Shown piece after piece: positions 26,479 to 26,803 of a stretch of 64,000 nt of DNA (positions are counted from its first letter, which is position 1; each line of letters starts with the position of its first letter). The position numbers and the translations under genes were made by a program. The stretch comes from Chloroflexota bacterium (GTDB lineage Bacteria > Chloroflexota > Anaerolineae > UBA1429), in assembly GCA_012729455.1 (NCBI GenBank), contig JAAYDC010000016.1, positions 62,001 through 126,000 of the forward strand. The letters run 5' to 3'. Under the pieces are notes generated by a model, which saw only the letters and a list, made by a program, of their open reading frames with translations, made no database searches and was not told the DNA's origin.

Positions 26479-26517
26479 AAAAAAGGGGTCTGGAGCCCGC
26501 ATGAGCACCCAGATCCC
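26479..26517 (-). terminator. Intrinsic terminator between the SelW-like gene and hom
   Basis: On the minus strand GGG-A-TCTGG pairs with CCAGACCC (8 bp with one bulged A), topped by a smaller GCTC/GGGC stem and followed by six T. It should end the SelW-like transcript before hom, or act as an attenuator in front of hom. Confidence 0.65.
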
Positions 26518-26537
26518 TTGTGATAAGCCGGCGCAGT

Positions 26538-26774
26538 TTAGAGCTTGGCTGCAATCTCCTTGAGCAGACGATCTTCCACCGGGAACTCGCCGGTTTTGAT
26601 CTTGGAATACATTTCGACCCCGTTCAGGCTGACTTCAAAGACACCTCCGCTGGAGGGCTTTAAGACGACTTCGCTGTAGGCATTTCTGTGGGTTTCGAGT
26701 GCTTTTTCCGCCAAACTGACGGCTCTTGCGAGATATCCTCAAGCAGTGCAGTAACGGATTTCTAACTTGACCAT
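26538..26774 (-). CDS. SelW-like (Rdx family) protein with in-frame UGA, probable selenoprotein
   Basis: Read through one in-frame TGA at 26739-26741, this gene encodes a 78-residue thioredoxin-like Rdx (SelW/SelT/SelH) protein: MVKLEIRYCTA, then UGA, then GYLARAVSLAEKAL, and later LKPSSGGVFEVSLNG and FPVEDRLLKEI. The UGA falls exactly on the second position of the redox motif (C-x-x-U; C-x-x-C in Cys homologues), the place where SelW-type selenoproteins carry selenocysteine. AGGAG precedes the ATG, and a promoter and a terminator bracket it. A short hairpin with a GU-containing loop lies 16-29 bases after the UGA but is too weak to count as proof of a SECIS. The alternative is a nonsense change of a Cys codon. 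Function: probable thiol/selenol oxidoreductase. Confidence 0.75.
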
Positions 26775-26803
26775 GGTTCAACTCCTCATGGGTATGATGC
26801 TTT

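Follow-up and report, generated by a model that had tools for sequence, protein, structure and literature searches.

A SelW-like gene in a Chloroflexota genome predicted to decode an in-frame UGA as selenocysteine through a covarying SECIS hairpin

The DNA analysed here (the window) is a stretch of 64,000 nucleotides from the Chloroflexota bacterium assembly GCA_012729455.1 (contig JAAYDC010000016.1, positions 62,001 to 126,000). Its minus strand holds, at 26774-26538, one frame whose sole interruption is a TGA at 26741-26739; the translation is MVKLEIRYCTA*GYLARAVSLAEKALETHRNAYSEVVLKPSSGGVFEVSLNGVEMYSKIKTGEFPVEDRLLKEIAAKL*, and the frame closes with a TAA stop at 26540-26538. Translation and family profiles together assign the gene (26538-26774, minus strand) to the SelW-like group of the Rdx / SelT-SelW-SelH family, with a predicted product of 78 residues in which selenocysteine (Sec) would be residue 12. 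The Pfam Rdx profile (PF10262) aligns across the TGA, here taken as Cys, along positions 1-73 of its 74 (E 1.1e-19) and scores 70.8 bits against a cut-off of 22.6; the TIGR02174 profile (CXXU_selWTH) reaches 63.2 bits (cut-off 34.2). These matches bear out the original prediction that the frame, read through a single TGA, encodes a complete 78-residue Rdx protein. It is the sole Rdx gene detected in the host genome, which is 99.2% complete. Upstream it is flanked by a ComEC-like competence gene and downstream by one for homoserine dehydrogenase.

The gene had also been credited with a ribosome site, a promoter and a terminator of its own, and two of these stand. A ribosome-binding site, GAGGAG, is visible in the sequence at 26782-26787 (minus strand), upstream of the ATG that starts at 26774. 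A stem-loop followed by a T run at 26483-26519 (minus strand) is a probable intrinsic terminator, with a folding energy of -21.1 kcal/mol and a z-score of -3.94. The promoter lacks support: a consensus scan found no sigma-70-like promoter for the Rdx gene.

The TGA (26739-26741, minus strand) completes a redox motif near the N-terminus, C-T-A-UGA at residues 9-12 (C9-T-A-U12 when the TGA is read as Sec), where Cys homologues carry CxxC. Both TGA-containing and stop-free Rdx forms occur in the phylum, as seen in a sample of 400 genomes, and in all 20 stop-free same-phylum homologues that were read, the codon at the Sec site is TGC or TGT, which confirms the earlier placement of the TGA at the second Cys of C-x-x-C. 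Five genomes of the sample (G219, G264, G309, G317 and G348) carry two to four Rdx genes each, with TGA and stop-free forms in one genome. Among 120 related genomes, every one of the 51 Rdx matches contains exactly one TGA; it occupies the same CxxU-motif codon in all 50 sequences read, the 51st match being a fragment at a contig end. Six distant relatives that the motif filter had missed were recovered by a looser search and also contain the TGA; they are absent from the pair counts given below. The UGA is thus both aligned with Cys in homologues and conserved in orthologues, and its reading as Sec draws on the translation, on the TGA of the relatives and on the codon of the Cys homologues.

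Only a single base separates TGA from TGC or TGT, which would suit a pseudogene or a sequencing or assembly error at a Cys codon. Such an origin is exceedingly improbable and is refuted by the recurrence of the TGA in 51 of 51 matches from independent related genomes, together with the conservation of the frame past the TGA and a covarying hairpin downstream of it. The original prediction had likewise considered a random nonsense change at that codon improbable, and the relatives agree.

The distribution of selenocysteine synthase among the same relatives is consistent with decoding as Sec. SelA scores over its cut-off in 47 of the 51 relatives with a TGA-containing Rdx gene; in two of the remaining four (G016 and G060) a fragment of SelA is present at a contig end, and the assemblies of the other two (G004 and G013) are incomplete. 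Conversely, Rdx was found in none of the nine relatives that are at least 90% complete and have no credible SelA. Because SelA is so common in the class (over cut-off in 102 of 120 relatives), this association serves as supporting evidence only.

The original prediction named absence of selA, selB or selC from the genome as the observation that would count against it; all three are present, as is selD. SelA is found at 568.7 bits with SelA domains, and SelB is full-length, at 633 aa, and carries the beta-barrel and winged-helix domains that are specific to SelB. The tRNA-Sec gene (selC) has the anticodon TCA (UCA in the RNA) and scores 71.3 bits; it directly precedes a tRNA-Glu gene of the same orientation (L012:1376-1595). 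A second tRNA-Sec candidate above the gathering score (L013) proved to be a tRNA-Leu, a cross-match. The selD gene (L020, G000:C9:75735-76670) itself contains an in-frame TGA at its active site, APGAG-U-GSK, with an 8-bp hairpin (loop GGU) behind it, and it is therefore probably a selenoprotein gene as well. By inference, at least two genes of the host genome would have a UGA decoded as Sec.

UGA is evidently read as sense in the Rdx gene, as would also be expected if the codon were reassigned throughout the genome to one of the standard amino acids (Trp, Gly or Cys), with no need for a SECIS element. Yet the neighbouring genes that were read, selA and selB are all complete under translation table 11 with no internal TGA, the genome has a genuine tRNA-Sec along with SelA and SelB, and a conserved hairpin is tied to the TGA form of the gene. 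On the strength of the SECIS hairpin and the sel genes we reject genome-wide reassignment, which has next to no chance of being correct.

The hairpin on which this argument draws lies directly after the UGA, as described for bacterial SECIS elements, which have a small, G-containing apical loop (PMC1088965). Sixteen nucleotides past the UGA, the minus strand forms the stem-loop CCGUCA-GUU-UGGCGG (26722-26708), with six base pairs and a three-base loop that begins 23 nt past the UGA (22 nt between). Across 43 distinct sequences of the same class, 96.5% of the cells in the six stem pairs are paired, and all six pairs are formed in 34 of the 43. The spacing is kept, with compensatory changes, and the first loop base is G in every one of the 43. 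Pair 18-30 is mostly C-G but is G-C in three sequences (L034, L037 and L042) and T-A in a further two; pair 21-27 is likewise mostly C-G, with G-C in two sequences and T-A in one.

The controls all fell below these values. Sliding one stem arm by 1-3 positions left 25-52% of cells paired and no full stems. Shuffling synonymous codons within columns gave at most 93% paired cells and 28 full stems, and recoding according to the codon usage of the genes themselves gave at most 72% and six. Since synonymous shuffles ignore relatedness, these values are indicative and should not be taken as probabilities. Codon choice points the same way: wherever codon 8 past the UGA encodes Ser, it is AGT or AGC (34 of 34), whereas the Ser at codon 29 is mostly encoded by TCN. 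The Cys homologues of the same phylum form the full stem in 0 of 20 cases, with 47.5% of cells paired.

Viewed singly, the hairpin has no exceptional thermodynamic stability (z -1.32, and z +0.89 for a longer stretch), and about 4.7% of the window's synonymous recodings would form it too. Single-sequence folding being uninformative, the case for a SECIS element rests on the comparison, by which we identify the hairpin at 26722-26708 as a bacterial SECIS element. The original prediction had noticed a SECIS-compatible hairpin here, which does exist, but had placed it at 26710-26723 and called it weak and not convincing, as it is unremarkable on its own; covariation and synonymous-codon constraint make it a stronger candidate than that. 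A scan of the whole window turned up just two more TGA-plus-hairpin sites, both in low-complexity frames and judged to be chance occurrences.

Beyond the class, four of seven named distant records (two from Alteribacillus, one from Verrucomicrobiia and one from Neomarinimicrobiota) retain a complete stem and a loop starting with G; in the other three, two Clostridia-like and one from Campylobacteraceae, the stem is incomplete in the exact register. The two Clostridia-like SelW genes (L057:3001-3186 and L058:993-1178) have their TGA at the same site, and their SECIS geometry probably differs.

Taken together, the sel genes, the conserved TGA and the covarying hairpin that Cys homologues lack uphold the original prediction of a likely selenoprotein at the CxxU site of a SelW/Rdx-like gene. 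We consider it almost certain that the gene encodes a SelW-like selenoprotein, in which the UGA at codon 12 would be read as Sec by means of SelB and the downstream hairpin. Sec insertion by SelB, Sec-tRNA-Sec and a SECIS element is an established bacterial mechanism. Based on it, we propose the following course of events. As the ribosome arrives at the UGA of codon 12, Sec-tRNA-Sec, made by SelA with selenophosphate supplied by SelD, would be bound in a complex with SelB and GTP to the hairpin just downstream, and selenocysteine would be inserted in place of termination. We expect the product to be a small protein with a thioredoxin fold and a CxxU redox pair. What the sequence itself shows is the frame, the Sec machinery, the conservation of the UGA and the SECIS hairpin; from these we infer Sec insertion and a redox role.

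Bacteria insert Sec inefficiently and in a selenium-dependent manner, and one could accordingly imagine that translation usually stops at the UGA, so that an 11-residue product or a selenium-dependent readthrough switch would be regulatory. There is no sign of function for an 11-residue peptide, however, and the larger part of the conserved Rdx domain is encoded past the UGA; we regard regulatory termination as very unlikely. For the full-length selenoprotein, the CxxU pair of SelW-like proteins suggests a redox function (PMC1088965), and the product is probably a thiol/selenol oxidoreductase. A more tentative idea, which we think rather unlikely, is that the strict 6-bp SECIS with its G-first three-base loop and the almost Sec-only SelW-like protein of this class (51 of 51) mark a lineage-specific rule of SelB recognition that is shared with selD.

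SelW-like selenoproteins of bacteria have been described since 2005-2006, with 48 genes in the Sargasso Sea set (PMC1088965) and 10 Sec forms in complete bacterial genomes (PMC1794560), and the authors of the latter study remarked that the Sec form may be ancestral in the family. The gene described here adds one to their number. It shares with these proteins (PF10262; TIGR02174) the CxxU motif, the size, the Rdx domain, the in-frame UGA and a SECIS element within the coding sequence directly after it; nothing essential differs apart from the lineage and the fact that Sec is here the only form found among 120 relatives. The Sec-containing selenophosphate synthetase SelD of the same genome likewise combines an in-frame TGA with a geometrically similar hairpin but belongs to a different protein family. 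By sequence, the structures 2fa8, 2oka, 2obk, 2ojl and 2p0g, deposited as hypothetical or selenoprotein W-related proteins, are of the same family as the Rdx gene product (E 1e-11 to 1e-9).

What is known of selenoproteins is left unchanged, and the value of the finding lies mainly in annotation: a gene seemingly disrupted by a stop codon, which would be lost to standard gene calling, is corrected. Genomes that mix both Rdx forms could serve for the study of Sec/Cys exchange. The finding also adds a well-supported, Sec-only SelW-like group, whose clean covarying SECIS could help to train SECIS detection.
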